Positions 18,309-63,254 of a DNA stretch of 64,000 nt are shown here, piece by piece. Below the pieces are notes generated by a model. The model did not search any database. It saw only the letters and a program-made list of their open reading frames with translations, and was not told the origin of the DNA. The position numbers were made by a program, and so were the translations under genes. Origin of the DNA: Pratylenchus scribneri (Eukaryota > Nematoda > Chromadorea > Rhabditida > Pratylenchidae); NCBI GenBank assembly GCA_030063045.1, contig JAQSEB010000109.1, positions 1,550,001 through 1,614,000 on the forward strand, in the 5' to 3' direction. Each line of letters opens with the position of its first letter. The stretch's first letter is position 1.

Positions 18309-18534
18309 TGAAGAGAAATATAATAGTCCATATTCATTTACTCTCTATCGATTTCATTTTTCTCTGACTGATGTGAAGCCATCCGCCAGTCGACACGTTT
18401 AGTTTAATTAGTCTGGCTTATTTTATTATTTTCAAGAATTAGAAAAATTGTATTTCCCATTAAATATTATGAGAAAATTGAAGAATTTTGTCTATTCAAA
18501 TTGATTTTTTAACAAGCTAAAAAATATTCATCAA

Positions 18535-20462: not shown

Positions 20463-20979
20463 GGTACTCCTCTGTTAACGGGGGGGGGGCCAAACTTTTA
20501 ACAGGGGGGGGGCAAAATTTTAAGAGGGGGGGCACCCGAAAATTTATTATTTTGCCTCCTCCGGTACTTAGAGAACCGAAAAATAGTACAAGAAGGAATT
20601 CTAAACCCTAAAAATCTAAACTAGCCTTACCCTAAACCTAACCCTAACTACCCCTAAAACCCATCCGGTCCTACCCAAACCTAATCCTATCCTACCCTAA
20701 ACCTCATTTTGGATCTTGACAAACCTTATTTAAGGTTTAGGGTAGGGTTAGGGTAAGATTAGGGTAGGGCCGGATGGGTTTTAGGGGTAGGGGTAGGGTT
20801 TTTTTGTGTAGTTAAATTTAGGGTTAGTGTAGGTAAAATTCGGTTTAGGGTAGTTATTCTGTTGTTTAAGGATCTTTAAAATACCGGGGGAGGCAGAATA
20901 ATAAATTTTCGGGTGTCCCCCTCTTAAAATTTTGCCCCCCCTGTTAAAAGTTTGGCCCCCCCGTTAACAGAGGAGTACC
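20463..20979. mobile_element. Foldback element with GGTACTCCTCTG ends, copy 1
   Basis: The ends are inverted copies (GGTACTCCTCTGTTAACG and CGTTAACAGAGGAGTACC), and the arms extend about 100 bp with G-runs and C-runs. The word CTGATTTT flanks both ends as an 8-bp target duplication, although it is also part of the satellite unit. The inner arms hold degenerate telomere-like words (CCCTAACC/GGGTTAGGG). No coding sequence. Confidence 0.85.
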
Positions 20980-21503
20980 CTGATTTTCATAAACATTCTG
21001 ATTTTCACAAACATTCTGATTTTCACAAACATTCTGATTTTCACAAACATTCTGATTTTCATAAACATTCTGATTTTCACAAACATTCTGATTTTCACAA
21101 ACATTCTGATTTTCACAAACATTCTGATTTTAACAACTGATTTTAACAAACATTCTGATTTTCATAAACATTCTGATTTTCACAAACATTCTGATTTTCA
21201 CAAACATTCTGATTTTAACAAACATTCTGATTTTCCCAAACATTCTGATTTTAACAAACATTCTGATTTTCCCAAACATTCTGATTTCACAAACATTCTG
21301 ATTTTCACAAACATTCTGATTTTCCCAAACATTCTGATTTTCACAAACATTCTGATTTTCCCAAACATTCTGATTTTAACAAACATTCTGATTTTCACAA
21401 ACATTCTGATTTTCACAAACATTCTGATTTTAACAAACATTCTGATTTACACAAACATTCTGATTTTCATAAACATTCTGATATTCACAAACATTCTGAT
21501 TTT

Positions 21504-22019
21504 GGTACTCCTCTGTTAACGGGGGGGGGGGCCAAACTTTTAACAGGGGGGGCAAAATTTTAAGAGGGGGGGCACCCGAAAATTTATTATTTTGCCTCCT
21601 CCGGTACTTAGAGAACCGAAAAATAGTACAAGAAGGAATTCTAAACCCTAAAAATCTAAACTAGCCTTACCCTAAACCTAACCCTAACTACCCCTAAAAC
21701 CCATCCGGTCCTACCCAAACCTAATCCTATCCTACCCTAAACCTCATTTTGGATCTTGACAAACCTTATTTAAGGTTTAGGGTAGGGTTAGGGTAAGATT
21801 AGGGTAGGGCCGGATGGGTTTTAGGGGTAGGGGTAGGGTTTTTTTGTGTAGTTAAATTTAGGGTTAGTGTAGGTAAAATTCGGTTTAGGGTAGTTATTCT
21901 GTTGTTTAAGGATCTTTAAAATACCGGGGGAGGCAGAATAATAAATTTTCGGGTGTCCCCCTCTTAAAATTTTGCCCCCCCTGTTAAAAGTTTGGCCCCC
22001 CCGTTAACAGAGGAGTACC
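21504..22019. mobile_element. Foldback element with GGTACTCCTCTG ends, copy 2
   Basis: Nearly identical to the copy at 20463-20979 and in the same position within the satellite unit. The satellite blocks that follow the two copies are also nearly identical (the 21198-21440 and 22220-22462 stretches translate the same). So this copy arose by tandem duplication of a block of about 1.04 kb, not by a second insertion. Confidence 0.85.
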
Positions 22020-22530
22020 CTGATTTTCATAAACATTCTGATTTTCACAAACATTCTGATTTTCACAAACATTCTGATTTTCACAAACATTCTGATTTTC
22101 ATAAACATTCTGATTTTCACAAACATTCTGATTTTCACAAACATTCTGATTTTAACAACTGATTTTAACAAACATTCTGATTTTCATAAACATTCTGATT
22201 TTCACAAACATTCTGATTTTCACAAACATTCTGATTTTAACAAACATTCTGATTTTCCCAAACATTCTGATTTTAACAAACATTCTGATTTTCCCAAACA
22301 TTCTGATTTCACAAACATTCTGATTTTCACAAACATTCTGATTTTCCCAAACATTCTGATTTTCACAAACATTCTGATTTTCCCAAACATTCTGATTTTA
22401 ACAAACATTCTGATTTTCACAAACATTCTGATTTTCACAAACATTCTGATTTTAACAAACATTCTGATTTACACAAACATTCTGATTTTCATAAACATTC
22501 TGATTTTCACAAACATTCTGTTTTTCAAAA

Positions 22531-23650
22531 ACTTTTTTCACAAACATTCTGTTTTTCAAAAACTTTTTTCACAAAATTCAGATCTTCATTTTGTGACTTT
22601 TAGGGAATAAGACAAGCTAATTCTCATTCTATCTCTTTAAGTTTCCCTGTTTCTAAACCCACATAAAACAATTTTTTAATTTTGAAAAAATTTTGTGTTA
22701 AAATTTTAAACTAAAATTAAAAAAATTCAATTACAGACGAGAGACGACATCCAACAATAACCGTCTAAGAGCAATGGTGTCCACTGTGTCCAGTCCATTT
22801 TATTTCTTCATTCCATTTTCTCATATGTTCACATTCTTTAGTTGCCTCTTATACAAATATTCTCTCAATCAAAAAAAGTGAGTGGCGTCCAACAAATCTA
22901 TTTTTGTTGACTCTGATGATGATGAATAAAAAATGAATGTGTATGGGGCGAAGATTACTAAGACAACGGACGAAAAATGAAGGGTCGATAATTTGGAGAG
23001 TTCTCATTAAATTGAGATGGACAAAAAATGGGCAGATAATTCGTCCACACAAAATAGAAAAAAATGTTACACAAAATATTTACAATTAACAGAGAAGATG
23101 AATTGTACCGAAACAAGTTCCCCATTCCTCTCCTTTTTTTAATTCTCCCCAATCCCAATTCATAATTGATGTGGAGGTGAAAAAATTGTGGAATTGATGG
23201 GTCTTGTGGGGGAAAAAGTGTTTAAAATGATCGATTTTAGCCAATGCGTCCACATTTCACCACCACAATATTCTTTCTTATTTTTATCAAAAAGATACAC
23301 AAATGGTGGAATTTTTAATTCCCAATTCAATGCACTTTCTTTTCTTATCTCGGCGAAAAAATAGCCAATTTTCATTCAAAATTAATATATTCATATCAGC
23401 ATTGAGCACAGAGTACCTTTTATAATGTCGAATAATCTTTTTAGTTCCATTTTTTGCATATTTTTGCATGCAGAATTAATAAATTTAAGTTTACATTTGC
23501 TTTTTTTAATTTTATAAAATCCAACAGTAAAAAAGTCCGGTAATAAATTAGTAAATTTTAGTTTAGCTTAAAATTGATTTTCACAAATTCGGTTAAAAAT
23601 GTAGTAAATCCGACAAATTCTTATCACTATTTCATTTTCAATTTTCATTA
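22531..23650. other. Spacer upstream of glutamine synthetase
   Basis: No gene was recognised. It should hold the glutamine synthetase promoter. Several minus-strand frames of 60-80 codons exist, but none has family features or joins to another. Confidence 0.45.
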
Positions 23651-42834: not shown

Positions 42835-45800
42835 TATTCAAGCTTTGCCATCTCAACAAAATTTTTGCATATTTTTTCTTCAAATCGAAATATAGTTTTT
42901 AAGCTTTGCCATCTCGACCAAAATGTTGCATATTTTTTCTTCAATTCGAATTATTGTTTTTAAGCTTTGCCATCTCGACCAAAATGTTGCATATTTTTTC
43001 TTCAATTCGAATTATTGTTTTTAAGCTTTGCCATCTCGACCAAAATGTTGCATATTTATTCTTCCAATCGAAATAACAATTTTAAGCTTTGCCATCTTGA
43101 CCAAAATGTTGCATATTTTTTCTTCAATTCGAATTATTGTTTTTAAGCTTTGCCATCTCGACCAAAATGTTGCATATTTATTCTTCCAATCGAAATAACA
43201 ATTTTAAGCTTTGCCATCTTGACCAAAATGTTGCATATTTATTCTTCCAATCGAAATAACAATTTTAAGCTTTGCCATCTCGACCAAAATGTTGCATATT
43301 TATTCTTCCAATCGAAATATAGTTTTTAAGCTTTGCCATCTCGACCAAAATGTTGCATATTTATTCTTCCAATCGAAATATAGTTTTTGAGCTTTGCCAT
43401 CTCGACCAAAATGTTGCATATTTATTCTTCCAATCGAAATATAGTTTTTGAGCTTTGCCATCTCGACCAAAATGTTGCATATTTATTCTTCCAATCGAAA
43501 TATAGTTTTTGAGCTTTGCCATCTCGACCAAAATGTTGCATATTTATTCTTCCAATCGAAATATAGTTTTTGAGCTTTGCCATCTCGACCAAAATGTTGC
43601 ATATTTATTCTTCCAATCGAAATATAGTTTTTGAGCTTTGCCATCTCGACCAAAATGTTGCATATTTATTCTTCCAATCGAAATAACAATTTTAAGCTTT
43701 GCCATCTCGACCAAAATGTTGCATATTTATTCTTCCAATCGAAATATAGTTTTTAAGCTTTGCCATCTCGACCAAAATGTTGCATATTTATTCTTCCAAT
43801 CGAAATAACAATTTTAAGCTTTGCCATCTCGACAAAAATGTTGCATATTTATTCTTCCAATCGAAATATAGTTTTTAAGCTTTGCCATCTCGACCAAAAT
43901 GTTGCATATTTATTCTTCCAATCTAAATATAGTTTTTAAGCTTTGCCATCTCGACCAAAATGTTGCATATTTATTCTTCCAATCGAAATATAGTTTTTAA
44001 GCTTTGCCATCTCGACCAAAATGTTGCATATTTATTCTTCCAATCTAAATATAGTTTTTAAGCTTTGCCATCTCGACCAAAATGTTGCATATTTATTCTT
44101 CCAATCGAAATATAGTTTTTAAGCTTTGCCATCTCGACCAAAATGTTGCATATTTATTCTTCCAATCGAAATATAGTTTTTAAGCTTTGCCATCTCGACC
44201 ACAATGTTGCATATTTATTCTTCCAATCGAAATATAGTTTTTAAGCTTTGCCATCTCGACCAAAATGTTGCATATTTATTCTTCCAATCGAAATATAGTT
44301 TTTAAGCTTTGCCATCTCGACCAAAATGTTGCATATTTATTCTTCCAATCGAAATATAGTTTTTAAGCTTTGCCATCTCGACCAAAATGTTGCATATTTA
44401 TTCTTCCAATCTAAATATAGTTTTTAAGCTTTGCCATCTCGACCAAAATGTTGCATATTTATTCTTCCAATCGAAATATAGTTTTTAAGCTTTGCCATCT
44501 CGACCAAAATGTTGCATATTTATTCTTCCAATCTAAATATAGTTTTTAAGCTTTGCCATCTCGACCAAAATGTTGCATATTTATTCTTCCAATCTAAATA
44601 TAGTTTTTAAGCTTTGCCATCTCGACCAAAATGTTGCATATTTATTCTTCCAATCGAAATATAGTTTTTAAGCTTTGCCATCTCGACCAAAATGTTGCAT
44701 ATTTATTCTTCCAATCGAAATAACAATTTTAAGCTTTGCCATCTTGACCAAAATGTTGCATATTTTTTCTTCAATTCGAATTATTGTTTTTAAGCTTTGC
44801 CATCTCGACCAAAATGTTGCATATTTATTCTTCCAATCGAAATAACAATTTTAAGCTTTGCCATCTTGACCAAAATGTTGCATATTTATTCTTCCAATCG
44901 AAATAACAATTTTAAGCTTTGCCATCTCGACCAAAATGTTGCATATTTATTCTTCCAATCGAAATATAGTTTTTAAGCTTTGCCATCTCGACCAAAATGT
45001 TGCATATTTATTCTTCCAATCGAAATATAGTTTTTGAGCTTTGCCATCTCGACCAAAATGTTGCATATTTATTCTTCCAATCGAAATATAGTTTTTGAGC
45101 TTTGCCATCTCGACCAAAATGTTGCATATTTATTCTTCCAATCGAAATATAGTTTTTGAGCTTTGCCATCTCGACCAAAATGTTGCATATTTATTCTTCC
45201 AATCGAAATATAGTTTTTGAGCTTTGCCATCTCGACCAAAATGTTGCATATTTATTCTTCCAATCGAAATATAGTTTTTGAGCTTTGCCATCTCGACCAA
45301 AATGTTGCATATTTATTCTTCCAATCGAAATAACAATTTTAAGCTTTGCCATCTCGACCAAAATGTTGCATATTTATTCTTCCAATCGAAATATAGTTTT
45401 TAAGCTTTGCCATCTCGACCAAAATGTTGCATATTTATTCTTCCAATCGAAATAACAATTTTAAGCTTTGCCATCTCGACAAAAATGTTGCATATTTATT
45501 CTTCCAATCGAAATATAGTTTTTAAGCTTTGCCATCTCGACCAAAATGTTGCATATTTATTCTTCCAATCTAAATATAGTTTTTAAGCTTTGCCATCTCG
45601 ACCAAAATGTTGCATATTTATTCTTCCAATCGAAATATAGTTTTTAAGCTTTGCCATCTCGACCAAAATGTTGCATATTTATTCTTCCAATCTAAATATA
45701 GTTTTTAAGCTTTGCCATCTCGACCAAAATGTTGCATATTTATTCTTCCAATCGAAATATAGTTTTTAAGCTTTGCCATCTCGACCAAAATGTTGCATAT

Positions 45801-48800
45801 TTATTCTTCCAATCGAAATATAGTTTTTAAGCTTTGCCATCTCGACCACAATGTTGCATATTTATTCTTCCAATCGAAATATAGTTTTTAAGCTTTGCCA
45901 TCTCGACCAAAATGTTGCATATTTATTCTTCCAATCGAAATATAGTTTTTAAGCTTTGCCATCTCGACCAAAATGTTGCATATTTATTCTTCCAATCGAA
46001 ATATAGTTTTTAAGCTTTGCCATCTCGACCAAAATGTTGCATATTTATTCTTCCAATCTAAATATAGTTTTTAAGCTTTGCCATCTCGACCAAAATGTTG
46101 CATATTTATTCTTCCAATCGAAATATAGTTTTTAAGCTTTGCCATCTCGACCAAAATGTTGCATATTTATTCTTCCAATCTAAATATAGTTTTTAAGCTT
46201 TGCCATCTCGACCAAAATGTTGCATATTTATTCTTCCAATCGAAATATAGTTTTTAAGCTTTGCCATCTCGACCAAAATGTTGCATATTTATTCTTCCAA
46301 TCGAAATATAGTTTTTAAGCTTTGCCATCTCGACCAAAATGTTGCATATTTATTCTTCCAATCGAAATATAGTTTTTAAGCTTTGCCATCTCGACCAAAA
46401 TGTTGCATATTTATTCTTCCAATCGAAATATAGTTTTTGAGCTTTGCCATCTCGACCAAAATGTTGCATATTTTTTCTTCAAATCGAAATATAGTTTTTA
46501 AGCTTTGCCCCCTTGGCCCAAAATGTTGCATATTTATTCTTCCAATCGAAATATAGTTTTTAAGCTTTGCCATCTCGACCAAAATGATGCATTATTTATT
46601 CTTCCAATCGAAATATAGTTTTTGAGCTTTGCCATCTCGACCAAAATGATATTTATTCTTCCAATCGAAATATAGTTTTTGAGCTTTGCCATCTCGACCA
46701 AAATGATGCATTATTTATTCTTCCAATCGAAATATAGTTTTTGAGCTTTGCCATCTCGACCAAAATGATGCATTATTTATTCTTCCAATCGAAATATAGT
46801 TTTTGAGCTTTGCCATCTCGACCAAAATGTTGCATATTTTTTCTTCAAATCGAAATATAGTTTTTAAGCTTTGCCCCCTTGGCCCAAAATGTTGCATATT
46901 TATTCTTCCAATCGAAATATAGTTTTTGAGCTTTGCCATCTCGACCAAAATGTTGCATATTTATTCTTCCAATCGAAATATAGTTTTTGAGCTTTGCCAT
47001 CTCGACCAAAATGTTGCATATTTATTCTTCCAATCGAAATATAGTTTTTGAGCTTTGCCATCTCGACCAAAATGTTGCATATTTATTCTTCCAATCGAAA
47101 TATAGTTTTTGAGCTTTGCCATCTCGACCAAAATGTTGCATATTTATTCTTCCAATCGAAATATAGTTTTTGAGCTTTGCCATCTCGACCAAAATGTTGC
47201 ATATTTATTCTTCCAATCGAAATATAGTTTTTGAGCTTTGCCATCTCGACCAAAATGTTGCATATTTTTTCTTCAAATCGAAATATAGTTTTTAAGCTTT
47301 GCCCCCTTGGCCCAAAATGTTGCATATTTATTCTTCCAATCGAAATATAGTTTTTGAGCTTTGCCATCTCGACCAAAATGTTGCATATTTATTCTTCCAA
47401 TCGAAATATAGTTTTTGAGCTTTACCATCTCGACCAAAATGTTGCATATTTATTCTTCCAATCGAAATATAGTTTTTGAGCTTTGCCATCTCGACCAAAA
47501 TGTTGCATATTTATTCTTCCAATCGAAATATAGTTTTTGAGCTTTGCCATCTCGACCAAAATGTTGCATATTTTTTCTTCAAATCGAAATATAGTTTTTA
47601 AGCTTTGCCCCCTTGGCCCAAAATGTTGCATATTTATTCTTCCAATCGAAATATAGTTTTTGAGCTTTGCCATCTCGACCAAAATGTTGCATATTTATTC
47701 TTCAAATCGAAATATAGTTTTTGAGCTTTGCCATCTCGACCAAAATGTTGCATATTTATTCTTCCAATCGAAATATAGTTTTTGAGCTTTGCCATCTCGA
47801 CCAAAATGTTGCATATTTATTCTTCCAATCGAAATATAGTTTTTGAGCTTTGCCATCTCGACCAAAATGTTGCATATTTTTTCTTCAAATCGAAATATAG
47901 TTTTTGAGCTTTGCCATCTCGACCAAAATGTTGCATATTTATTCTTCCAATCGAAATATAGTTTTTGAGCTTTGCCATCTCGACCAAAATGTTGCATATT
48001 TATTCTTCCAATCGAAATATAGTTTTTGAGCTTTGCCATCTCGACCAAAATGTTGCATATTTATTCTTCCAATCGAAATATAGTTTTTGAGCTTTGCCAT
48101 CTCGACCAAAATGTTGCATATTTATTCTTCCAATCGAAATATAGTTTTTGAGCTTTGCCATCTCGACCAAAATGTTGCATATTTATTCTTCCAATCGAAA
48201 TATAGTTTTTGAGCTTTGCCATCTCGACCAAAATGTTGCATATTTATTCTTCCAATCGAAATATAGTTTTTGAGCTTTGCCATCTCGACCAAAATGTTGC
48301 ATATTTATTCTTCCAATCGAAATATAGTTTTTGAGCTTTGCCATCTCGACCAAAATGTTGCATATTTATTCTTCCAATCGAAATATAGTTTTTGAGCTTT
48401 GCCATCTCGACCAAAATGTTGCATATTTATTCTTCAAATCGAAATATAGTTTTTGAGCTTTGCCATCTCGACCAAAATGTTGCATATTTATTCTTCCAAT
48501 CGAAATATAGTTTTTGAGCTTTGCCATCTCGACCAAAATGTTGCATATTTATTCTTCCAATCGAAATATAGTTTTTGAGCTTTGCCATCTCGACCAAAAT
48601 GTTGCATATTTTTTCTTCAAATCGAAATATAGTTTTTAAGCTTTGCCCCCTTGGCCCAAAATGTTGCATATTTATTCTTCCAATCGAAATATAGTTTTTA
48701 AGCTTTGCCATCTCGACCAAAATGATGCATTATTTATTCTTCCAATCGAAATATAGTTTTTGAGCTTTGCCATCTCGACCAAAATGTTGCATATTTATTC

Positions 48801-51800
48801 TTCCAATCGAAATATAGTTTTTGAGCTTTGCCATCTCGACCAAAATGTTGCATATTTATTCTTCCAATCGAAATATAGTTTTTGAGCTTTGCCATCTCGA
48901 CCAAAATGTTGCATATTTATTCTTCCAATCGAAATATAGTTTTTGAGCTTTGCCATCTCGACCAAAATGTTGCATATTTTTTCTTCAAATCGAAATATAG
49001 TTTTTAAGCTTTGCCCCCTTGGCCCAAAATGTTGCATATTTATTCTTCCAATCGAAATATAGTTTTTGAGCTTTGCCATCTCGACCAAAATGTTGCATAT
49101 TTATTCTTCCAATCGAAATATAGTTTTTGAGCTTTGCCATCTCGACCAAAATGTTGCATATTTTTTCTTCAAATCGAAATATAGTTTTTAAGCTTTGCCC
49201 CCTTGGCCCAAAATGTTGCATATTTATTCTTCCAATCGAAATATAGTTTTTGAGCTTTGCCATCTCGACCAAAATGTTGCATATTTATTCTTCAAATCGA
49301 AATATAGTTTTTGAGCTTTGCCATCTCGACCAAAATGTTGCATATTTATTCTTCCAATCGAAATATAGTTTTTGAGCTTTGCCATCTCGACCAAAATGTT
49401 GCATATTTATTCTTCCAATCGAAATATAGTTTTTGAGCTTTGCCATCTCGACCAAAATGTTGCATATTTATTCTTCCAATCGAAATATAGTTTTTGAGCT
49501 TTGCCATCTCGACCAAAATGTTGCATATTTATTCTTCCAATCGAAATATAGTTTTTGAGCTTTGCCATCTCGACCAAAATGTTGCATATTTATTCTTCCA
49601 ATCGAAATATAGTTTTTGAGCTTTGCCATCTCGACCAAAATGTTGCATATTTTTTCTTCAAATCGAAATATAGTTTTTGAGCTTTGCCATCTCGACCAAA
49701 ATGTTGCATATTTATTCTTCCAATCGAAATATAGTTTTTGAGCTTTGCCATCTCGACCAAAATGTTGCATATTTATTCTTCCAATCGAAATATAGTTTTT
49801 GAGCTTTGCCATCTCGACCAAAATGTTGCATATTTATTCTTCCAATCGAAATATAGTTTTTGAGCTTTGCCATCTCGACCAAAATGTTGCATATTTATTC
49901 TTCCAATCGAAATATAGTTTTTGAGCTTTGCCATCTCGACCAAAATGTTGCATATTTATTCTTCCAATCGAAATATAGTTTTTGAGCTTTGCCATCTCGA
50001 CCAAAATGTTGCATATTTATTCTTCAAATCGAAATATAGTTTTTGAGCTTTGCCATCTCGACCAAAATGTTGCATATTTATTCTTCCAATCGAAATATAG
50101 TTTTTGAGCTTTGCCATCTCGACCAAAATGTTGCATATTTATTCTTCCAATCGAAATATAGTTTTTGAGCTTTGCCATCTCGACCAAAATGTTGCATATT
50201 TTTTCTTCAAATCGAAATATAGTTTTTAAGCTTTGCCCCCTTGGCCCAAAATGTTGCATATTTATTCTTCCAATCGAAATATAGTTTTTAAGCTTTGCCA
50301 TCTCGACCAAAATGATGCATTATTTATTCTTCCAATCGAAATATAGTTTTTGAGCTTTGCCATCTCGACCAAAATGTTGCATATTTATTCTTCCAATCGA
50401 AATATAGTTTTTGAGCTTTGCCATCTCGACCAAAATGTTGCATATTTATTCTTCCAATCGAAATATAGTTTTTGAGCTTTGCCATCTCGACCAAAATGTT
50501 GCATATTTATTCTTCCAATCGAAATATAGTTTTTGAGCTTTGCCATCTCGACCAAAATGTTGCATATTTTTTCTTCAAATCGAAATATAGTTTTTAAGCT
50601 TTGCCCCCTTGGCCCAAAATGTTGCATATTTATTCTTCCAATCGAAATATAGTTTTTGAGCTTTGCCATCTCGACCAAAATGTTGCATATTTATTCTTCC
50701 AATCGAAATATAGTTTTTGAGCTTTGCCATCTCGACCAAAATGTTGCATATTTATTCTTCCAATCGAAATATAGTTTTTGAGCTTTGCCATCTCGACCAA
50801 AATGTTGCATATTTATTCTTCCAATCGAAATATAGTTTTTGAGCTTTGCCATCTCGACCAAAATGTTGCATATTTTTTCTTCAAATCGAAATATAGTTTT
50901 TAAGCTTTGCCCCCTTGGCCCAAAATGTTGCATATTTATTCTTCCAATCGAAATATAGTTTTTGAGCTTTGCCATCTCGACCAAAATGTTGCATATTTAT
51001 TCTTCCAATCGAAATATAGTTTTTGAGCTTTGCCATCTCGACCAAAATGTTGCATATTTATTCTTCCAATCGAAATATAGTTTTTGAGCTTTGCCATCTC
51101 GACCAAAATGTTGCATATTTATTCTTCCAATCGAAATATAGTTTTTGAGCTTTGCCATCTCGACCAAAATGTTGCATATTTATTCTTCCAATCGAAATAT
51201 AGTTTTTGAGCTTTGCCATCTCGACCAAAATGTTGCATATTTATTCTTCCAATCGAAATATAGTTTTTGAGCTTTGCCATCTCGACCAAAATGTTGCATA
51301 TTTATTCTTCCAATCGAAATATAGTTTTTGAGCTTTGCCATCTCGACCAAAATGTTGCAGATTTATTCTTCCAATCGAAATATAGTTTTTGAGCTTTGCC
51401 ATCTCGACCAAAATGATGCATTATTTATTCTTCCAATCGAAATATAGTTTTTGAGCTTTGCCATCTCGACCAAAATGATGCATTATTTATTCTTCCAATC
51501 GAAATATAGTTTTTGAGCTTTGCCATCTCGACCAAAATGTTGCATATTTTTTCTTCAAATCGAAATATAGTTTTTAAGCTTTGCCCCCTTGGCCCAAAAT
51601 GTTGCATATTTATTCTTCCAATCGAAATATAGTTTTTAAGCTTTGCCATCTCGACCAAAATGTTGCATATTTATTCTTCCAATCGAAATATAGTTTTTGA
51701 GCTTTGCCATCTCGACCAAAATGTTGCAGATTTATTCTTCCAATCGAAATATAGTTTTTGAGCTTTGCCATCTCGACCAAAATGATGCATTATTTATTCT

Positions 51801-53300
51801 TCCAATCGAAATATAGTTTTTGAGCTTTGCCATCTCGACCAAAATGTTGCATATTTATTCTTCCAATCGAAATATAGTTTTTGAGCTTTGCCATCTCGAC
51901 CAAAATGTTGCATATTTATTCTTCCAATCGAAATATAGTTTTTGAGCTTTGCCATCTCGACCAAAATGTTGCATATTTATTCTTCCAATCGAAATATAGT
52001 TTTTGAGCTTTGCCATCTCGACCAAAATGTTGCATATTTATTCTTCCAATCGAAATATAGTTTTTGAGCTTTGCCATCTCGACCAAAATGATGCATTATT
52101 TATTCTTCCAATCGAAATATAGTTTTTGAGCTTTGCCATCTCGACCAAAATGTTGCATATTTTTTCTTCAAATCGAAATATAGTTTTTAAGCTTTGCCCC
52201 CTTGGCCCAAAATGTTGCATATTTATTCTTCCAATCGAAATATAGTTTTTAAGCTTTGCCATCTCGACCAAAATGTTGCATATTTATTCTTCCAATCGAA
52301 ATATAGTTTTTAAGCTTTGCCATCTCGACCAAAATGTTGCATTATTTATTCTTCCAATCGAAATATAGTTTTTAAGCTTTGCCATCTCGACCAAAATGTT
52401 GCATATTTATTCTTCCAATCGAAATATAGTTTTTAAGCTTTGCCATCTCGACCAAAATGTTGCATATTTATTCTTCCAATCGAAATATAGTTTTTAAGCT
52501 TTGCCATCTCGACCAAAATGTTGCATATTTATTCTTCCAATCGAAATATAGTTTTTAAGCTTTGCCCCCTTGGCCCAAAATGTTGCATATTTTTTCTTCA
52601 AATCGAAATATAGTTTTTAAGCTTTGCCATCTCAACCAAAATGTTGCTTATTTATTCTTCCAATCGAAATATAGTTTTTAAGCTTTGCCATCTCGACCAA
52701 AATGTTGCATATTTTTTCTTCAAATCGAAATATAGTTTTTAAGCTTTGCCAAAATGTTGCATATTTTTTCTTCAAATCGAAATATAGTTTTTAAGCTTTG
52801 CCATCTCAACCAAAATGTTGCATATTTTTTCTTCAAATCGAAATATAGTTTTTAAGCTTTGCCCCCTTGGCCCAAAATGTTGCATATTTTTTCTTCAAAT
52901 CGAAATATAGTTTTTAAGCTTTGCCATCTCAACCAAAATGTTGCTTATTTATTCTTCCAATCGAAATATAGTTTTTAAGCTTTGCCATCTCGACCAAAAT
53001 GTTGCATATTTTTTCTTCAAATCGAAATATAGTTTTTAAGCTTTGCCCCCTTGGCCCAAAATGTTGCATATTTTTTCTTCAAATCGAAATATAGTTTTTA
53101 AGCTTTGCCCCCTTGGCCCAAAATGTTGCATATTTTTTCTTCAAATCGAAATATAGTTTTTAAGCTTTGCCATCTCAACCAAAATGTTGCATATTTATTC
53201 TTCCAATCTAAATATAGTTTTTAAGCTTTGCCATCTCGACCAAAATGTTGCATATTTATTCTACAATTCGAAATATAGTTTTTAAGCTTTGCCATCTTAG
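42835..53300. repeat. 61-bp satellite, about 170 units, with higher-order structure
   Basis: The unit is AGCTTTGCCATCTCGACCAA, then AATGTTGCATATTTATTCTT, then CCAATCGAAATATAGTTTTTG. Diagnostic variants show that blocks were copied: the variant GACAAAAATG at 43831 and 45478, and the variant GACCACAATG near 44197 and 45844, are both 1,647 bp (27 units) apart. In the right half, identical segments recur 1,590 bp apart (48427 and 50017; 48795 and 50385). Subtypes with CCCCCTTGGCCCAAAATG or TTTTTTCTTCAAATCG form regular patterns. Open frames on the minus strand (up to 117 codons) exist only because the unit lacks stops in that frame. No gene lies inside. Confidence 0.97.
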
Positions 53301-53461: not shown

Positions 53462-56400
53462 TTATCTTACTTTTTTCTTCAGCCCACTCTTCGGGTTTAT
53501 TGGAACAACACGCCAAAATTGTTTGTCCAATATTTTATTAAGTGCATAAAATTGTATTCCAATTCCATACATGAAAGCCAAACAAAATATTGCCGACAAA
53601 CGAAAAAAGAATTCCCTGAAAAATAATAAATTTAAAAATAAATTATTAGCAATATTTTTTTTAAATTTAATCTGTGTCATTCGTCTTCAACTACGTTAGG
53701 ATGATTCACATTGATACTGGTGTAAATGATAACTTAAATTTTTTTTGTTTTTTTCAGTTAAAATTTAAATAAAAATAAAAGAATAAACACAAAATGTTTG
53801 GAAAAACAAAAACCAAAAATTTTTGGAGAATGTTTTTTTTATAATTTTTAAACAAAATTTAATATTTATTATAATAATTTTTTTCTAATTATTTCAAATT
53901 TTAATGAAAATTTAAATTAGCTTTTATACTATTGTAGAGTAGAATCAAGGGATGGGATTTTTATTGATATCAATATTTTGTTTGCGAACTTAAAATAGCT
54001 TGAAACCAACGTAAAATATGTTTTTATCAATGTTTTTGTTGATTTTCGTGAACTTTTTGGTCAATATCCATCAATATTTTGCCATTTTTTTTGATCGTCA
54101 ATATTTATTTCAATATTTCGCCATTTTTTGGCATTTTGTTCAATATTTTGAAGATTTTTGAAAATTTTTACTAAATTTTATAGTTTTTTTGCAAAAAATT
54201 TAAAATTTCTTGATAAAATTTTGAAAATTTTTTGAAAAATTTTCCATTTTTTGAAAAAAATAATCAAAAATTGATTTTCGCCTATTATTTAAAAAATTAT
54301 CAATCTATAAAAAATAATTCATTTTTTAGAAATGAATTTTAAAATTTTTTTTGAATAAAAAACATCAAAATGTTAATATAATAATTTTTGATTGAAAGTA
54401 ATTGAAAAAAAATTTTAAAAATTTTTTGCTAAAATTTATCGTTTTTTAAAAAATTTTCATCAATATTTTGCCTATTTTTTGTTATTTTCGTCAATAAAAA
54501 TCCCATCCCTAAGAATCACCCATATTTATATTTATACCACCTTTTGCCTATTTTAGGTTGCTATATTTAAATATTGGAATAATTAGCATTTACTTACGCC
54601 CTGTTGCATTCAACATAGCCACGGACTATTGTGGTTGGGGTTTTCAAACCAAATCGATTTTCCTCTTCCCGAATTGTATGTTCTAATAGAAATAGTGGCA
54701 CACGATGGGCATCCATTTGAACATGCAAACCGGGCCCTTTGAACTGAATTTGGGTGAATTATAAAATTATTTATTTAATCGTGATTTTTCGTGTCTGGTT
54801 AAATTTGACTCCTATTAAACCTCATGCTGCTCAAAGTTTAGCCCCAATTTATTTATATAACTCGAAATCTAATTCTAATCTTAAGTATTCTGCTGCTGGT
54901 GGCCAAACAAGTTTTATGGTCTCAAAAAAAGATTACTTTAGCACGAAAAATTTCATGGTCTGAAAATTATAGAAAAATGTAATAAAAACCAAATTTAAAC
55001 TTTTTCAAATTTTGGACTTGATAGCCCCCCCCCCCCCCCTCAAATCGACTAAAAAGTGAAATCCAAAAATAAGTGCCTGTTTCATCATGGGTAAATTAAT
55101 TGACATCCTAAATTATCGTTATTTTGTTTATTTTTTTAAACAAAAAGCTTACTTCTTCCTCTAATTGGGCTGAATTTAGCCTCTAATTTGACTATTTTTG
55201 TTTTTCCTTAGAAAACTTTTTTAGGGTTAGGACTAGGGTTATGGTAGGGCCGGCATGGGTATTTATTAGGGATGGGGACTAAGCTATAAATTTGTTGAAT
55301 TATGGCCATTTTTGTGATAATGCATTTTTTGGCCATAACTCTGTGGCCAATGGGCCAATTTAAATGAACTAAATTGCATTTAATAGCTTTTTTGTGGGCT
55401 ATCGAATGGTATATTATATATATTTTTTGAAAGACAAAAATTTTGCCCAAGTTATGGCCAAAAAACCACTTTTCGCAAAATCAGAGGCTAGATTCAGCCA
55501 AATTAAAGGAAGAATTAAGTCCCACGTTTTTTTACCGGTTCTCCATTGATCAGAGCATCTGGGCGAATTAGGGCGACAATACAGCGTTTTTGTGGATAAT
55601 AGATAATTTTATCGATCTGCAAAAGAAAAATAACGAATTTGTAAAAATGTTCAGCCCATACCTCTCCAGTTGGCAAATAGTATTGCATGAATTGTTCGAA
55701 TGTGATTTGTGGTTGCGCCACAATTTGGGCATGCTCTGACTTCACATTGCCACGCGGCAGACTGGACAGGAAAATATCAATACAAACAAGTGAGATCATT
55801 TGGATTAAGGCGAATTTGCGAAGCGCTGAAATGAAATTATGGAGATTATATTTTTTTATCTTATTAGTTACTTGCTTAAAGGGAAATATTTAAAATGCCG
55901 AATAAAGTTTTAAAAGGTTTTAACGGGTTTAGTGGTTTGTCCTAGACCCCTAAACTCTATACACATTCGATAGATCTCGTCAAGACGCGTCGAATGGTAT
56001 ATAATTTGTCATGGTTTGATCAAAAATTAAGGGTATTAAACCGTTTAAACCGTTTGTCGACTTTGGTTCAAAATCAAGTTAAAATTGATCAACCCTTGAC
56101 AAAATATATACCATTCGACGCGTCTTGACGGGATCTATCGAATGGGTATAGGGTTTAAGGGTCTATGACAAACCACTAAACCGCTAAAATTATTACTTTA
56201 TTCGGCATTTTCAACAATTCGGCATTTTCAATAATTATACCATCCCTTACTTAAATATATTATTTATGTGCAGATTTAAAAATTTTGAGATTTTTATTTT
56301 ATTATTCATATTGAGATAATATTAATTTGCCGAAAAAATAATTAATTTGCCGAAATTTCTCCTGCCAAAAAAAATATATTTTTTTAGGCCATATAGCTTG

Positions 56401-57930
56401 GCCATAACTAGGTATTAGGGCTCAGGGTTAGATACAGAGCACAGGATGGGATTAGGAGCTAGAGGCTAATGATTAGGGAACTAAACTCGAACAAACTATA
56501 CACCAATCGAAGTATCTCAATGAGCTAGGATATAAGGTTTTATGGGTCAAGGAAGAAGCATAAAAGTTATTACGTTATGGGCAAAAAAAATTTCTCTTTT
56601 TAAAAATTTAGTTTCGAACCAAAAATGGAAATATATTTAAATAATTTATTTTATAAATTTTTGGTACTTGTGTAGTTTGGGTTCCGGTCATCAGGTTTGG
56701 GATTAGGGTAGGGTCATTCAGGGATATGTTAGGGATGGGATGGGGTAAAAATCATCTCAAATGTATCCTAAACCCAAGCACAAACCCTAACACCCAAAGG
56801 GGGTCCCTTCACTTTTTCCTCACTTTTACCAAGGTGACCCAAAAGGGGACCCAAACTTAGCAAGTAATAACTTTTTTATTTTTGACCAAACTGTTGGTCA
56901 CCAATTAAAAATTAATTATTTTTAAGCCCACCTCGCCCAATATCCCATTCAATTTTGTAGCCGCTTTTTGCATGCTCTTCGTTGAATTCATCCAAGAACA
57001 TTTTGATTCTAACTGGACTAATCAAAACATATTTTATCGGATGGACGCAGTAATATCTTCCTTCAGCAAATTTTGATTCGAATTTGGACAACAATTGTTG
57101 GGAATCCATTTTGTCGGCGACCTCTTTGTCATCCGTGGAATTGGAGCAAGTGCTGGGCGTTTTCTCGCTGCTGCTGACTTTGAATCGTAGTCCGCGTGCT
57201 GCTGAAAATAATTTTTATAATATTAATAATCGTAAATATTTCCTTAGAGGTTACTATTTTTTTCAGATAAAAAGTATTTTTTTGCAGAAAAAAAAACAGT
57301 TTTTGATTTCTAACAATTCAGAAACCGGTTTTAGAGCCCAAAAACTTTATACCATTTTGTAGATCTCATCGAGACGCATCGAATGGTATATAATTTATCA
57401 TGCTTTGACCCAAAATTAAAGAGTTTAAAACCAAAAACCGGAAATATGGGTTTAAACGGTTTAATACCCTTTAATTTTGGGCCAAACCATGACAAATTAT
57501 ATACCATTCGATGCGTCTCGATGAGATCTACAAAATGGTATAAGGTTTGTTGGGTCTAAAACCGGTTCCCGACTTATTAGAAGTCACTTTTTTCTGCAGA
57601 AAATATTTTCCTAAAATCCAGCATAGTTTATTTTAGGAAAATATTTTAGTTTTTTTAAGTATTGAATAAATCTTCTCTGAATTTAATTATTAAATTTTTA
57701 GTAAATTTATCAAATTAATTACGTGTTAGAATGCATTTTTGATTGGCCAAATTATCCATGAGAAGGCAGCATTTTGCACCGTTGTTAGTTTTCAGTGAAT
57801 GATGTGTTCGAAATGGATGGCGCAAAATCAGCAAATTGCGATGATTTCGATGGTAGAGCATTTGTTGTTGGCTTTGGCTGGCACTTCTCACAAAATTGGA
57901 TGTTGTTGAAATTTTTAGAAGGCAATACAT
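53462..57930 (-). CDS. Mitochondrial m-AAA N-domain-like protein 1 (no ATPase domain)
   Basis: Exons 57723-57930, 56932-57201, 55662-55825, 55536-55616, 54598-54743 and 53462-53615 keep phase and give 340 residues. The first 45 residues have Arg/Lys/His but no acidic residue, as in a mitochondrial presequence. Then a hydrophilic region, TM1 (FALIQMISLVCIDIFLSSL, about 164-182), an intermembrane-space domain (ITFEQFMQYYLPTGE, YYPQKRCIVALIRPDALING, RVPLFLLEHTIREEENRFGL) and TM2 (FFRLSAIFCLAFMYGIGI, about 293-312). This is the order and style of the FtsH extracellular domain at the N-terminus of paraplegin and AFG3L2. The chain stops 28 residues after TM2; no Walker A, SRH or HEXXH follows. An alternative donor at the end of the last exon would instead join an exon running into the satellite. 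The role is unknown: it might pair with true m-AAA subunits or act alone. Confidence 0.82.
53948..54510. mobile_element. Terminal-inverted-repeat element in intron 5 of gene 1
   Basis: Ends AGGGATGGGATTTTTATTGA and TCAATAAAAATCCCATCCCT are perfect inverted repeats. The flanks TAGAATCA and AAGAATCA differ at one position and may be an 8-bp target duplication, so it is perhaps hAT-like. The interior is made of TCAATATTTTG-type words. No coding sequence. Confidence 0.8.
55148..55522. mobile_element. Foldback element in intron 4 of gene 1
   Basis: The left end (ACTTCTTCCTCTAATTGGGC, then TGAATTTAGCCTCTAATT) is inverted at the right (AATCAGAGGCTAGATTCA, then GCCAAATTAAAGGAAGAATT). The centre has AGGGTTAGGACTAGGGTT, telomere-like. 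Confidence 0.7.
55885..56245. mobile_element. Foldback element of the GACGCGTC family, in intron 2 of gene 1
   Basis: GATAGATCTCGTCAAGACGC, then GTCGAATGGTATATAATTTG, at the left faces ATATATACCATTCGACGC, then GTCTTGACGGGATCTATC, at the right. The ends (TTTAGTGGTTTGTCCTAG; TATGACAAACCACTAAAC) are inverted. Confidence 0.85.
56675..56865. mobile_element. Foldback element with GTAGTTTGGGT ends, in intron 2 of gene 1
   Basis: It starts ACTTGTGTAGTTTGGGTTCC and ends GGGGACCCAAACTTAGCAAG. The centre holds GATTAGGGTAGGG and CCTAAACCC. Related to 32266-32480. Confidence 0.65.
57245..57640. mobile_element. Foldback element of the GACGCGTC family, in intron 1 of gene 1
   Basis: Left arm AAACCGGTTTTAGAGCCC and TTTGTAGATCTCATCGAGAC; right arm GTCTCGATGAGATCTACAAA and GGGTCTAAAACCGGTT. 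Near-perfect palindrome over about 300 bp. Confidence 0.85.
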
Positions 57931-58182
57931 TTTGCTCCAAAATTTTGCAAAAAAAAAATCCCTAAATTTTTATTAAATATTAAAAATATTATTAATAAAT
58001 AAAAAGATAATTTCATTTAAATGGATTAATCATTAATGTGTAAATAATATTAGAAAAATTGTAATAATTTTATACAAATATAAAAAAATTGATAAATGAT
58101 AATAAAATTTGCATTTATAAATAAATTAATTCATCAAATCAACAATGTCAAACTAATCAATTTTTTTTGCTCTTTTGGACAT

Positions 58183-61100
58183 TCATCCTCTTGAATTTCT
58201 GGCCACCACACGGAACCATTTTTTGAAGTATGTTTTGACCGTAAAGCGTGCCCAAAGTATTTGCACAAGCATCATGAGAAAAAATGCGCACAAATAGTAG
58301 AATATTCTATTGCTGGAAATGGAAAAAATATTTTTTATTTCTTATTCACTTTAATTTTTAAAACCGTAATTTTTGAAGTTTTAAAAAAGGAATACCGACA
58401 AAAAGTTTTTACTTTTTGACTTCTAATAAATCAGAAACCGGTTTTAGACCTTACAAACCTTGTACCAATTTGTAGATTTCATCGAGACGCGTCGATTAGT
58501 ATATAATTTTCATAGTTTGGCCAAAATTAATTAAACCGTTTAAACAAAATTTCCGGTTTTTTGTTTAATTAAAGGGTATTAAACTGTTTAAACCAGATTT
58601 CCCGTTTTTGGTTTTAAACTCTTTAATTTTGGATCAAACTATGACAAATATTATACCATTCAATGCGTCTCAATGAAATCTACAAAATGGTATAAGGTTT
58701 GTAGGGTTTAAAACCGGTTTTTGATTTATTAGAAGTCAAAAAATTTTCTGGGAAAAATTATTTTTTTTTTCTGCAAAAATAGTAACCTTAATTTTTCATA
58801 GCCCTGTTTTAATTTATTATACTCAAATAATAAACCTTTTATTGTATACAAGTTCGCCTCTGATGAGGACTGGGATTGAATCTTTCGAACCAATTGAACT
58901 TTCAGCGGCCCGGATAAATGTGTTTAAAAATAGTTTTGGCGCTGGAATTGCCAATTTAACATGTACACCGAGTCCAGTGAACTGATTTAGAGAAGAAAAA
59001 TTTGGATATTTTGTATATTTTTACCGGTTCTTCATTGATCAGTGCACCTGGGCGAATTAGGGCAATAAGCAATCTCTTCGATCGATAATAGATAATTTTG
59101 TCAACCTGTATGAAAAAAAAGGAATTGATTTAAAATTATTTTTGGGAAAGAAACACTTCCTTTCCTATTTACTTTACTTATTACTAGAGATCGGACGGGA
59201 CCAGTGGCGGTTTTAGGGGGGTGCGGGGGTGCGCACCCCCAGTTTGGGGGAGTGGCACCCCGGGGTGCCGTGGGGGTAGAGAGAAAAAATAGGGGTTTTT
59301 TTTACAAATTAGACTAAAAACCAAAAAAAATTTTAGCACTCGCGCCTAACGGCGTCGGCGCTCGTATTATATTTTTTTAACTGATTTTTTTCCAGTAAAC
59401 TTCATTTTTTTTTTCAAAATTTTCGGTTTTTTGACATAAAAATTGGTAAATTTTCGAGAGCACCCCGGGGTGCTGTGATTTTTTCGGCTGCGCACCCTCC
59501 CCTTTCTGGAAAAATCCTAGAACCGCCACTGGACGGGACGATCGTTCGGGAGAAAGTTCGGGAAAAGAGACCGGAATGATTTGGGAATTCCAGAGAAGGT
59601 GATCCTGACTGAAGAATTTTCTGAATTTTCGGGAAAACACGGTTATGGGAATTTCTAAAAATTTCCGATCAAGGGAAAAGGGCATTTTTCGTTAGAATTT
59701 TTCCCTTGAAGTTTTAAAATGTTGATTTTTATAGACTAACAGTAATAATCTACAAATATGTGCGTTTAAATTGTTTTTTTTTTACCATTTTTTCCTAAAT
59801 GAATTTTTTTCTCTTTTCCATTGTTTTTAAAAATTCCTGAATCCCGAGCAGGGTCCCGATATTTTTTGACTCGGAAAAACTCGGAAATGGGAATTTTCGG
59901 AAATCCCGAACCGAGTTCCCGATCGAGGTGCTTGGTCTATCTCTTATTTAAAATATTTCCTATCAAAAAAAAGCGCAAACCTCTCCAGATGACAAATATT
60001 CACCCAAAAATTGGCCGAATGTGATTTTTGGTTGTGCCGCCACAATTTGTGCATATTCCGGATTCAAATTGCCGCGTGGACGAAACAACCAGATCAGAAA
60101 GAGCATAAAAATGGTCGGAATGATTTGTATTAAGATGAGTGAAGTGATCATTAAGCATGCATCCGTAAAATCTGCAATTGAAAAAAAATTAATATTTTAG
60201 GATAATATTTAATTTAGCAAAAAAACATTGAAAATGGCGAAAAGATTATAACGGTTTAACGGTTCAGTGGTTTGTCCTAGATGCATAATCCTTATACACA
60301 GTCAATAGATCTCATCAAGATTCAAGACGCGTCGATTGGTATATAATTTGTTTGGTTTGATCAAAAATTAAGGGTTTTAAACCACTTAAACCGTTTTTAT
60401 GGGGTTTGGTTCAAAATCAATTAAACCATGATAAATTATATACCAATCGATGTGTCTTGACGAGCTCTATCCAATGGTATATGTGAATTTTGGACAAACC
60501 AACTAAACCGTTATAAACTTTTCGCAATTTTCAATGTTTTTTTTTTCGTAATTTTAAATATTTCCCTATAAATTTGATCAAAAAATAATTAATTAACACA
60601 AATTTTTTGTGACAAAAATAATAATTTTTGAGGCCATAAAACTTGACCAAATCAGACTTCTTTAAGATTACCTATTCCCTAATCCCATGCTGCCCTAAAA
60701 TCCGTAATACCTAGTTATGGCCAAGTTAACCTCAAAAATAATATTTTTCGATGCGAAAGAATTCGGGTAAATTTTTTTTTGGGGAAAAATTAATTTTTTC
60801 CCATTTTTTAATTCAAAGTCAATCAATCAATTTTCCTTACTAATTGTCTGCTCGTCCGCATTATCTTTAGAACTTCGCATTTCATCGTTCGCAATTTCGT
60901 TTCTTTCTACAAATTGCTTTAGTGATTCATGAAGATCATTGGCATATTCAATTTTGTAGCCGCTTTTTGCATGTTCTTTGTTGAATTTGAGCCTGAACAA
61001 TTCTACAGCGTCGGGTAATTCGATGAGTTTTACGTTCCCATTCTTTAAATCCTTCCAAAATTTGTAATAAAATTGGATATATTTTGATTTGAATTCGGAC

Positions 61101-61887
61101 ATAAATTTTTGTTGGGATTCCATTTTGTCGGCTTTCTCCTTCTCATTCTCAACAGTAGCAGCAATGGAGGAGGGGATCTCTGCTGTCTTTACTTTTGTCA
61201 CTTTTATCTTGATGCCACTATTGTCAGCATTTTTTCGAAGTTCGCGCGACTCTGAAATTTTTATTTTATCAAAATGTTTTGCTTCATTGCGACCTAAAAT
61301 ACATAACTATTGATAAATATTTCGACTTTTAATAAATCAAAAACCGGTTTTAGACCTTATAAACCTTATACAGTTTTGTAGATCTCATCGAGACGCGTCA
61401 ATTGATATATAATTTGTCATGGTTTGGTCAAATTTGTAGTGTATTAAACCACTTATTTAAACCGTCCATGGTTTTTGGTTTAAAACTAATTTAAAATTGT
61501 CAAACCCATGACAATTTATATATGACGCGTCAGGTTAGAACTTTTAGCATAAAATCTACTATATTTTTTTCTCTATATTCATTACAATCAGGATTAATAA
61601 TGAACAAATTAGCTAAAATTTTTTAAAAAAATAACATTAAAACCTCATGACTTCAGCATAATTAAGAAAATGTATTATTTACGTATTAAAATGCATTTTT
61701 TATTGGCCAAATTATCCATGAGAAGGCAACATTTTGCATTGTTGTTTGTTTTCAGTGAATGATATGTTCGAAATGGATGGCATAAAAACATTAAATTGCG
61801 ATGATTTCGATTGTATAACATTTGATGTTGGCTTTGGCTGGCACTTCTCAAAAAATTGGTTGTTGACATTTTTAGAAGGCAATACAT
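58183..61887 (-). CDS. Mitochondrial m-AAA N-domain-like protein 2 (no ATPase domain)
   Basis: Exons 61683-61887, 60841-61251, 59981-60171, 59025-59105, 58836-58981 and 58183-58312 keep phase and give 387 residues. The exon layout is the same as in gene 1, and exons 4 and 5 are the same length (81 and 146 nt). The presequence is very like that of gene 1 (MYCLLKMSTT; HPFRTYHSLKTNN). Exon 2 is longer and encodes a Lys/Glu-rich stretch (EKEKADKMESQQKFM ... NKEHAKSGYKIEY). TM1 is at about 212-232, ending in WLFRPRGN; the intermembrane-space domain follows (ITFGQFLGEYLSSGE, LLIALIRPGALIN), then TM2 (RIFYYLCAFFLMMLVQIL). The chain ends 27 residues after TM2, without an AAA domain. The two genes are tandem duplicates that have diverged in exons 2, 5 and 6. 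Confidence 0.82.
58370..58800. mobile_element. Foldback element of the GACGCGTC family, in intron 5 of gene 2
   Basis: Left arm AATCAGAAACCGGTTTTAGA and TCATCGAGACGCGTCG; right arm ATTCAATGCGTCTCAATG and GTTTAAAACCGGTTTTTGAT. Palindromic over about 380 bp. Confidence 0.8.
59202..59531. mobile_element. hAT-like short element (330 bp), in intron 3 of gene 2
   Basis: Ends CAGTGGCGGTTTTAGG and CCTAGAACCGCCACTG are inverted repeats with one mismatch, flanked by a perfect 8-bp duplication GACGGGAC (59194-59201 and 59532-59539). It has GC-rich inner arms (GCACCCCGGGGTGC palindromes). It is nested in an older repeat with inverted CGGGA-rich ends that reaches to about 59940. Confidence 0.9.
60210..60560. 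mobile_element. Foldback element of the GACGCGTC family, in intron 2 of gene 2
   Basis: Left arm AACGGTTCAGTGGTTTGTCC and AGACGCGTCGATTGGTATAT; right arm ATATACCAATCGATGTGTCT and TTTGGACAAACCAACTAAAC. Confidence 0.8.
61310..61560. mobile_element. Foldback element of the GACGCGTC family, in intron 1 of gene 2, partial
   Basis: The left arm is well kept (AATAAATCAAAAACCGGTTT; GATCTCATCGAGACGCGTCA). The right arm is cut short after ATATGACGCGTCAGG. Confidence 0.7.
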
Positions 61888-62155
61888 TTTGGTCCTTGGA
61901 TTTAGCAGAAAAAAGCCTGCATTTTTTTATAAATGATGTTTTGTATTTTTTATTAATAAAATAAAAGATAAGATTTTTTATTCAATGAATAAATCATTAA
62001 AATGTGTGAAAAAACATAATTAAATTTTATAAATTACCTATTTGAAAATGTAAACAACAAAAAAATCAACAAATTAATCTAATAACAAAAATTACCTATT
62101 TTTAATTTCTCTCTTTCAAATCATTTTTACGGAATATTCCTTCATTCTTTTTGAT

Positions 62156-63254
62156 TTATTTTGAGTCTCGTTTTCGTAAACCAATCGAATATTGCTCATC
62201 TTGAATTCGTTGTTCTATTTCTTTTGTTTGCACATTGCGGAATGATTCTGGCAATTGAACAATCAAAACGGGGTCATTAAACTAAATTTAAGTATAAAAT
62301 GTCGTTAATTTTTTGGTTTTTACCAGTTCTCCATTGATGAGAGCATCTGTTGGGCGGAGGAGGGCAACAAGCAAGTTTCGTTCCCGATTATGGATAAAGT
62401 AGATAATCTAAAAGAAAAAAATTAAGGAATATATTAAAATTGTATTGGTTACTATTTTTTGGCAGTAAAATTATTTCTTTTGGCACAAAAATGCTTTTTT
62501 GGCACAAAAATGCTTTTTTGGCACTAAAAACAGTTTTTGACTTCTAATAAATCAGAAATAGGTATTTGACCAAACAAACTTGATACCAATTTATAGATCT
62601 CATTGAGACGCATCGATTGGTATATAGAATCAGGTTTTAGCCCAAAATTAGAATTTAAAAACTAAAAACTTGAAAAATGGTTTAAACGGTTTAATAGCCT
62701 TTAATGTTGGCCAACCATGACAAATTATATAAGAATCGATACGCTCGATGAGATCTACAAAATGGTATAATGTTTGTAGGGTCTAAATCCGGTTTCTGGA
62801 TTTATTGGAAATCAAAATCCGTTTTGTGTAATAAATATTTATCAAATTGTTTTTGTGAAGGCCTATTCTTATTTTATTTTTATTAATATTTCTTTTTCTT
62901 AAAACCATGAGCTTTTTGTAATTCATGTGTTCCTTTAGAAACATTGGAATAATATTAAAAAAAAGCTGTATGAATAAATTTTTCCAAACTTATTTAAATG
63001 ATTTAAAGAGCTCAAAAACCTCTATAGACGGTAAATAGTCTTGCAAAAATTGGTCGAATTCGATTGATCGCATTCGGATTGATTCTGGCAATCGAACATG
63101 CAAATAGGGCGCAATGAACTATGATTTTGAGAAAAAATTTAAATTGTTTTACTTTTTTGTGTGTTTTTACCCGTTTTCCATTGATTGTAGCACTTTTACG
63201 GAGGAAGACGACAAGCAAATTTTGTTTCGGATAAGGGTCAATTTTGGCGATGTA
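62156..63254 (-). CDS. m-AAA N-domain-like protein 3, partial (5' end outside the window)
   Basis: Exons 63171-63254, 63020-63118, 62324-62407 and 62156-62281 are each a multiple of three and read in one frame for 131 residues to a stop. The 63254 end has an acceptor, so upstream exons lie to the right, beyond the window. The protein holds the intermembrane-space module of genes 1 and 2 twice: first PKQNLLVVFLRKSATINGKR with IEFDQFLQDYLPSIE, then RERNLLVALLRP and DALINGEL with LPESFRNVQTKEIEQRIQD. No second membrane segment follows the second module, unlike genes 1 and 2. It may be a soluble or singly anchored variant, or a gene on the way to decay, but no stop or frameshift is seen in these four exons. 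Confidence 0.68.
62450..62835. mobile_element. Foldback element of the GACGCGTC family, in an intron of gene 3
   Basis: Left arm TTGACTTCTAATAAATCAGA and TAGATCTCATTGAGACGC; right arm CGATACGCTCGATGAGATCT and GGTCTAAATCCGGTTTCTGG. Palindromic, more diverged than the copies in genes 1 and 2. Confidence 0.75.

Follow-up and report, generated by a model that had tools for sequence, protein, structure and literature searches.

The window, by which we mean the whole 64,000-nucleotide stretch of Pratylenchus scribneri DNA under analysis (G000:C109:1550001-1614000), contains two complete genes, A and B, both encoded on the minus strand by six exons. The assembly searched comprises 227 Mb in 276 contigs. 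Models rebuilt from the DNA predict proteins of 387 amino acids for gene A, in which the start of exon 2 was fixed by an acceptor common to the paralogues, and 340 amino acids for gene B. The two models put forward in a first-pass annotation of the window, each with a domain between two transmembrane (TM) segments and then a stop, had these same lengths. Both A and B begin with a basic N-terminus free of acidic residues; TM1 comes next, then a domain of the m-AAA intermembrane-space (IMS) type, TM2, and a stop codon. The first acidic residue occurs at position 58 in A and position 59 in B, and either protein contains two hydrophobic segments.

Exon 1 of gene A (61683-61887, minus strand, as are all exons that follow) encodes the acid-free, basic, presequence-like N-terminus in 68 codons plus 1 nt. 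Exon 2 (60841-61251) encodes a variable, presumed matrix-side segment that contains HAKSGYKIE. TM1 and the start of the IMS domain (PKITFGQFLGEYLSSGE) are contributed by exon 3 (59981-60171), which is followed by a phase-0 intron after SGE. The IMS domain continues through the 81-nt exon 4 (59025-59105; VDKIIYY..IRPGALINEEP) and is completed by exon 5 (58836-58981); TM2, a short basic tail, and the stop codon are located in exon 6 (58183-58312). In gene B, the presequence-like N-terminus is encoded by exon 1 (57723-57930), the presumed matrix-side segment by exon 2 (56932-57201), TM1 and the start of the IMS domain (PQITFEQFMQYYLPTGE) by exon 3 (55662-55825), the remainder of the IMS domain by the 81-nt exon 4 (55536-55616) and exon 5 (54598-54743), and TM2, the basic tail, and the stop codon by exon 6 (53462-53615). 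Two motifs mark the domain: ITF.QF...YL..GE, which lies with TM1 in exon 3, and RP.ALIN.EP in exon 4. The ATG of gene B is separated from the stop codon of gene A by 252 nt.

Downstream, gene B adjoins a 10.5-kb satellite (42841-53297) in which a 61-bp unit is repeated 171 times. At 19642-22563, an 18-bp unit forms three arrays that read, in one frame, as an HKHSDF-type peptide repeat. The nuclear-receptor-like pieces at 17177-18843 are a pair of similar C4 zinc-finger exons, one on either strand, and part of a ligand-binding domain. The minus strand at 802-2769 carries pieces of a FLYWCH zinc finger and of a Ulp1-type C48 peptidase, perhaps derived from a DNA transposon.

The first-pass annotation had counted three adjacent minus-strand genes. 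A and B are such genes, but the third (63254-62156) contains only partial pieces that resemble exons 3-5. Along this region, parts of which were read by eye, an exon 4-like piece, an exon 5-like piece, and a piece similar to the end of exon 3 are followed by another pair of exon 4- and exon 5-like pieces. The first three occupy 63020-63254 (minus strand) at 25-30 bits each, with the exon 5 part assigned by eye; the second exon 4-like and exon 5-like pair (62156-62407, minus strand) scores 29 and 36 bits and reaches a stop codon after GLRKRDSK, an end placed by eye. Neither exon 2 nor exon 6 was recognized between 63254 and 62156. An exon 1 match of 23 bits near the third member, with a stop at 62075, was discarded. 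Units of exons 3-5 or exons 4-5 without a resolved exon 6 also occur on C135, C203, C16, and C181, possibly as a subtype that has diverged or is decaying. An LPESF motif recurs in those on C135, C203, and C16, as does the ending GLRK.DS, and units of this kind may represent a form of the family that lacks TM2.

Protein A, used as a query against its own genome, yields at least 107 exon-level matches at E <= 10. At least 43 of these (counted by eye) correspond to exon 1, all with E < 1e-5, and are distributed over 14 contigs; the expanded set of paralogues proposed at the outset is thus far bigger than could be seen in the window. Family copies stand in head-to-tail arrays. Chaining of exons over 20 stretches totaling 231,295 bases (the 64,000 of the window and 167,295 of other array DNA) gave 46 exon groups, 36 with exon 1. 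Fifteen of the 46 are complete six-exon genes without an internal stop, and the other 31, which may include pseudogenes, are a mixture of groups cut by the end of a stretch, partial groups, and groups in which one exon was left unresolved by the chaining rules. The 15 complete copies form only 8 types when grouped at dS < 0.2, so allelic or homeologous copies inflate the copy count. There are three paraplegin-like genes (C98, C55, and C109) and three YME1-like genes (C59, C31, and C8), all named from their motifs, a pattern suggestive of a polyploid or unmerged assembly.

In 15 of 17 neighbor pairs, the stop codon is followed by the next exon 1 ATG at a distance of 187-270 nt; in the other two, the downstream exon 1 has no ATG. 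Two exon 1 copies, one on C203 and one on C22, are without a start codon. Exon 4 measures 81 nt in all of the 15 complete copies but one, which has 78 nt. All 75 introns of these copies are bounded by GT..AG, a rule by which the boundaries were chosen and which is therefore not independent evidence. Kyte-Doolittle windows reveal the two flanking hydrophobic segments, in the order TM1-IMS-TM2, in all 15 proteins, one of which has a third, weak, internal segment. By a count of composition, the N-terminus of every complete copy carries 6-10 lysines or arginines ahead of a first acidic residue at positions 50-72. Searches of protein databases for relatives returned none of 2138 candidates at E <= 10 with protein A and none of 4612 at E <= 1 with the 15-member alignment.

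The IMS domain links the family to paraplegin. A profile confined to this domain, built from 16 of 17 sequences each trimmed to 98 residues (C16_1724733 was omitted because its exon 5 end looked wrong), retrieved the IMS domain of human paraplegin (9rk6_B) as the top match in the PDB with E = 1.1e-5; the second match, the IMS domain of AFG3L2 (2lna_A), was not significant (E = 0.78). Human paraplegin IMS domain also ranked first (E = 1.2e-4) for a full-length profile of the 15 proteins. Alignment of the family with the genome's own paraplegin (C98) by hhalign extends over 57 columns, from TM1 to just past SGE (SGEI), with a score of 34.4, a probability of 59%, and E = 9.4e-5, compared with 14.2 when the sequence is reversed and no more than 20.8 in any of 40 shuffles. 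The Pfam model FtsH_ext (PF06480) matches protein A with E = 9e-4 and 19.9 bits, below its gathering score of 25.5; it reaches two of the 15 members at E <= 1, both under the cut-off, and protein B has no match in Pfam. The FtsH-type domain assignment of the first-pass annotation is thus borne out by a profile match to the human paraplegin IMS domain but not at the Pfam cut-off. The N-domain of the nematode's own paraplegin matches no Pfam family, indicating that the FtsH_ext model is insensitive here, and it reaches paraplegin in the PDB by phmmer only at E = 0.62, indicating that the paraplegin of this nematode is itself divergent. Across 16 sequences, the core of the IMS domain contains 12 invariant columns.

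Intron positions provide a second line of comparison with the C98 paraplegin, whose exon boundaries, including those of a 48-nt intron between exons 4 and 5, were placed by eye. In three MAFFT modes, the intron between exons 3 and 4 falls in the same alignment column in the family and in paraplegin, that between exons 4 and 5 lies one column away, and both are in phase 0 in either gene; the intron between exons 5 and 6 lies within four columns and is in phase 2 in both. The intron that precedes exon 3 disagrees, being in phase 1 in the family and phase 0 in paraplegin (by eye). At the exon 4/exon 5 boundary, the homeologous matches on C55 and C109 are interrupted close to the residue at which C98 breaks. 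Chance resemblance was rejected on the grounds of a multi-copy family with introns in common. Taken together, the domain profile, the moderate match to the nematode's own paraplegin, and the three common intron positions and phases argue for homology, and these genes very probably encode ATPase-free m-AAA N-domain proteins. The identity originally proposed, an m-AAA N-domain without its ATPase, is thus supported by sequence: a presequence-like start, a TM segment, an FtsH-type IMS domain, a second TM segment, and a stop.

Neither motor nor peptidase was detected in the array DNA tested. Peptide queries from the ATPase and peptidase parts of the genome's own paraplegin and AFG3L2-like genes gave no AAA or M41 match at E <= 10 in the 231,295 bases of window and other array DNA; the same queries gave 24 matches on control loci. 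M41 peptidase was found at seven loci in the genome (best candidates only), none inside an array. All 15 complete copies have an in-frame stop after TM2, and the early claim that the proteins end there without an ATPase part holds for the array DNA tested. We rejected a truncated annotation of a full protease, given the stop after TM2, the next ATG 187-270 nt on, and the absence of AAA from the arrays tested. The sole recognized AFG3L2-like ATPase/peptidase gene (G000:C10:3094783-3095771) starts inside the AAA domain, past Walker A. No Walker A half was recognized for it, either among the genome matches or over some 3.4 kb of upstream sequence; an assembly gap, a distant exon, and real loss are candidate causes.

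Patterns of substitution bear on whether the genes are live. Among nine pairs with dS < 0.2, which are not independent of one another, dN/dS is 0.21-0.50 in eight and 0.89 (95% 0.54-1.47) in the ninth; the latter is the highest, and no supported value above 1 was obtained in the pairs tested. Gene A and its counterpart on C136 give 0.38 (95% 0.24-0.59), and A versus B gives 0.66 (95% 0.49-0.86). Exons 2, 5, and 6 diverge fast among paralogues, with a mean dN of 0.56-0.58. Of 33 copies, 24 carry a TT[CT]AG element in the 50 nt that precede the ATG, 20 of them at 21-31 nt, compared with 3 of 33 in either of two control stretches and a mean of 4.1 (maximum 10) in 500 shuffles. The element resembles an acceptor site for the splicing of a leader; gene B has it as TTTAG, and gene A has TGCAG in its place. 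The genome contains 227 exact copies of the 22-base SL1 leader and none of its reversed control; the RNA genes around these copies fall below the Rfam SL1 gathering score (best 54.4 versus 75 bits). The low dN/dS values and the acceptor-like TT[CT]AG argue for live genes.

Exon 1 (for example, 61683-61887 and 57723-57930) is conserved in an unusual manner. Its identity is 0.75-0.89 in ten tandem pairs, compared with 0.44-0.66 in the next 50 nt of the intron, 0.52-0.72 in the 50 nt upstream, and an average of 0.47 for shuffled 100-nt pieces. Over 105 pairs, with saturated ones omitted, its mean dS of 0.39 is below the 0.68-1.11 of the other exons. Synonymous sites of exon 1 thus appear constrained or homogenized. 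A long 5' gene-conversion tract was rejected as the source of this identity, the flanks being much less identical than the exon; conversion may have been confined to exon 1.

Published work on m-AAA proteases frames what such proteins might do. In the excerpted text of PMC5438985, the role of m-AAA IMS domains is given as unclear; modulators may use them as surfaces for interaction, and prohibitin rings, which can contact these domains, seem to hold the protease in check. To oligomerize, i-AAA needs its TM and N-terminal domains, and FtsH its TM domain (PMC5438985). Yta10/12 without the IMS and TM domains still assemble and are poor at degrading membrane substrates, and the IMS domains of solubilized Yta10/12 fan out without direct contact; the metalloprotease domain is involved in m-AAA assembly and hetero-oligomer choice (PMC5438985). 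The location of known hetero-oligomer determinants in the metalloprotease domain (PMC5438985) weakens the idea that the proteins poison m-AAA rings, which the first-pass annotation had raised together with capping or regulating them. Along with assembly in the absence of IMS and TM domains and the fanned arrangement, it implies that an N-domain on its own might stay outside the ring.

We tentatively prefer a reading, held at somewhat less than even confidence, in which the genes encode an ATPase-free partner or decoy family that modulates m-AAA/prohibitin assemblies. The nuclear-encoded protein would correspond to the N-terminal part of a paraplegin-type m-AAA subunit that ends after TM2, and each family member would be imported into mitochondria and seated in the inner membrane in the m-AAA topology. 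Such a TM-IMS-TM protein would own only those parts that seat m-AAA in the membrane and allow it contact with the prohibitin ring. By occupying membrane/prohibitin contacts, where it would compete more readily than it would enter the ring, an ATPase-free partner or decoy could tune how m-AAA gains access to its membrane substrates. Each paralogue would owe a partner preference of its own to the variable exons 2 and 5. Multi-copy genes for the membrane-and-sensor end of the protease, without the motor and cutting parts, suggest a built-in set of regulators or decoys for mitochondrial quality control. It is possible, if rather doubtful, that interchangeable non-catalytic partners at the membrane/IMS face of m-AAA/prohibitin create many tunable versions of this quality control.

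Ranked next, as a possible account to which we give about one chance in three, is neofunctionalization, in which inner-membrane proteins took over the m-AAA N-domain for its ready-made membrane anchor and IMS module and now serve a role (scaffold, adaptor, or lipid or redox partner) unrelated to m-AAA. The assembly facts above strengthen it and weaken modulation, as IMS domains do not drive the choice of m-AAA ring (PMC5438985). The fast divergence of exons 2, 5, and 6 points the same way, as does the strong conservation of exon 1, unusual in a mere presequence, and the divergence of A from B (dN/dS 0.66) fits new roles equally well. However, retention of the TM-IMS-TM order in 15 of 15 copies and of the 12 invariant columns speaks against a role so remote from m-AAA. 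Tandem amplification and the same divergence between A and B could also mark rapidly evolving conflict genes, such as a mitochondrial selfish or toxin-antidote-like set built on the m-AAA N-domain as a scaffold, but purifying selection in eight of nine close pairs and the lack of a supported dN/dS above 1 in the pairs tested make this improbable.

We consider it similarly unlikely that the arrays are decaying, that is, paraplegin N-terminal fragments spread by segmental duplication and now mostly pseudogenes. The 31 incomplete groups (several of which are incomplete because the stretch ends), the partial units in the window and on C135, C203, C16, and C181, and the absent start codons on C203 and C22 fit decay; the 15 full-length open copies, purifying selection, and the conserved 5' element do not. 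Nematodes trans-splice leaders, and the SL1 copies in this genome, along with an AFG3L2-like ATPase gene found solely as a 3' part, raise the scenario that long-range or trans-splicing adds ATPase exons to the genes, which would then be N-terminal halves only. That scenario is very improbable in view of the in-frame stop after TM2 in every complete copy, the short distance to the next exon 1 ATG in 15 of 17 pairs, and an AFG3L2-like piece that starts past Walker A.

Modulation of m-AAA/prohibitin, if true, would mean that an FtsH-type protease is regulated by stand-alone copies of its own N-domain, for which we found no description; no title or abstract start among the open-licence PMC papers listed concerns a stand-alone m-AAA N-domain family. 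The family may offer a new means of regulating proteases of the FtsH type. Its many ATPase-less copies of the IMS part are a natural experiment on what this domain does alone, and a source of natural reagents for decoy, dominant-negative, or adaptor tests.

Among known systems, paraplegin (SPG7) has the same order of TM1, IMS domain, and TM2, the IMS profile match at E = 1.1e-5, and, in the paraplegin-like gene of this genome, the three intron positions and phases in common with the family. Unlike paraplegin, the family is multi-copy, has neither AAA ATPase nor M41 peptidase, and ends in a short basic tail and a stop; it also has its own conserved exon 1, its own exon 2, and a phase-1 rather than phase-0 intron before exon 3. 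AFG3L2 and yeast Yta10-Yta12 have the same N-terminal architecture, again with the ATPase and peptidase that the family is without. An AFG3L2 N-domain was not found among the genome matches, so sequence does not divide paraplegin from AFG3L2 as the source. Prohibitins and bacterial HflK/HflC, membrane modulators that meet the IMS or periplasmic domains of FtsH-type proteases (PMC5438985), would be functional analogues, with no sequence relation claimed. The nearest published idea, as far as the excerpted text of PMC8197885 extends, is that of the plant FtsHi pseudo-proteases, disabled FtsH relatives of which four are found in a heteromeric complex. FtsHi proteins keep an intact AAA+ domain and lose the zinc site only (PMC8197885), whereas the nematode family has neither part.
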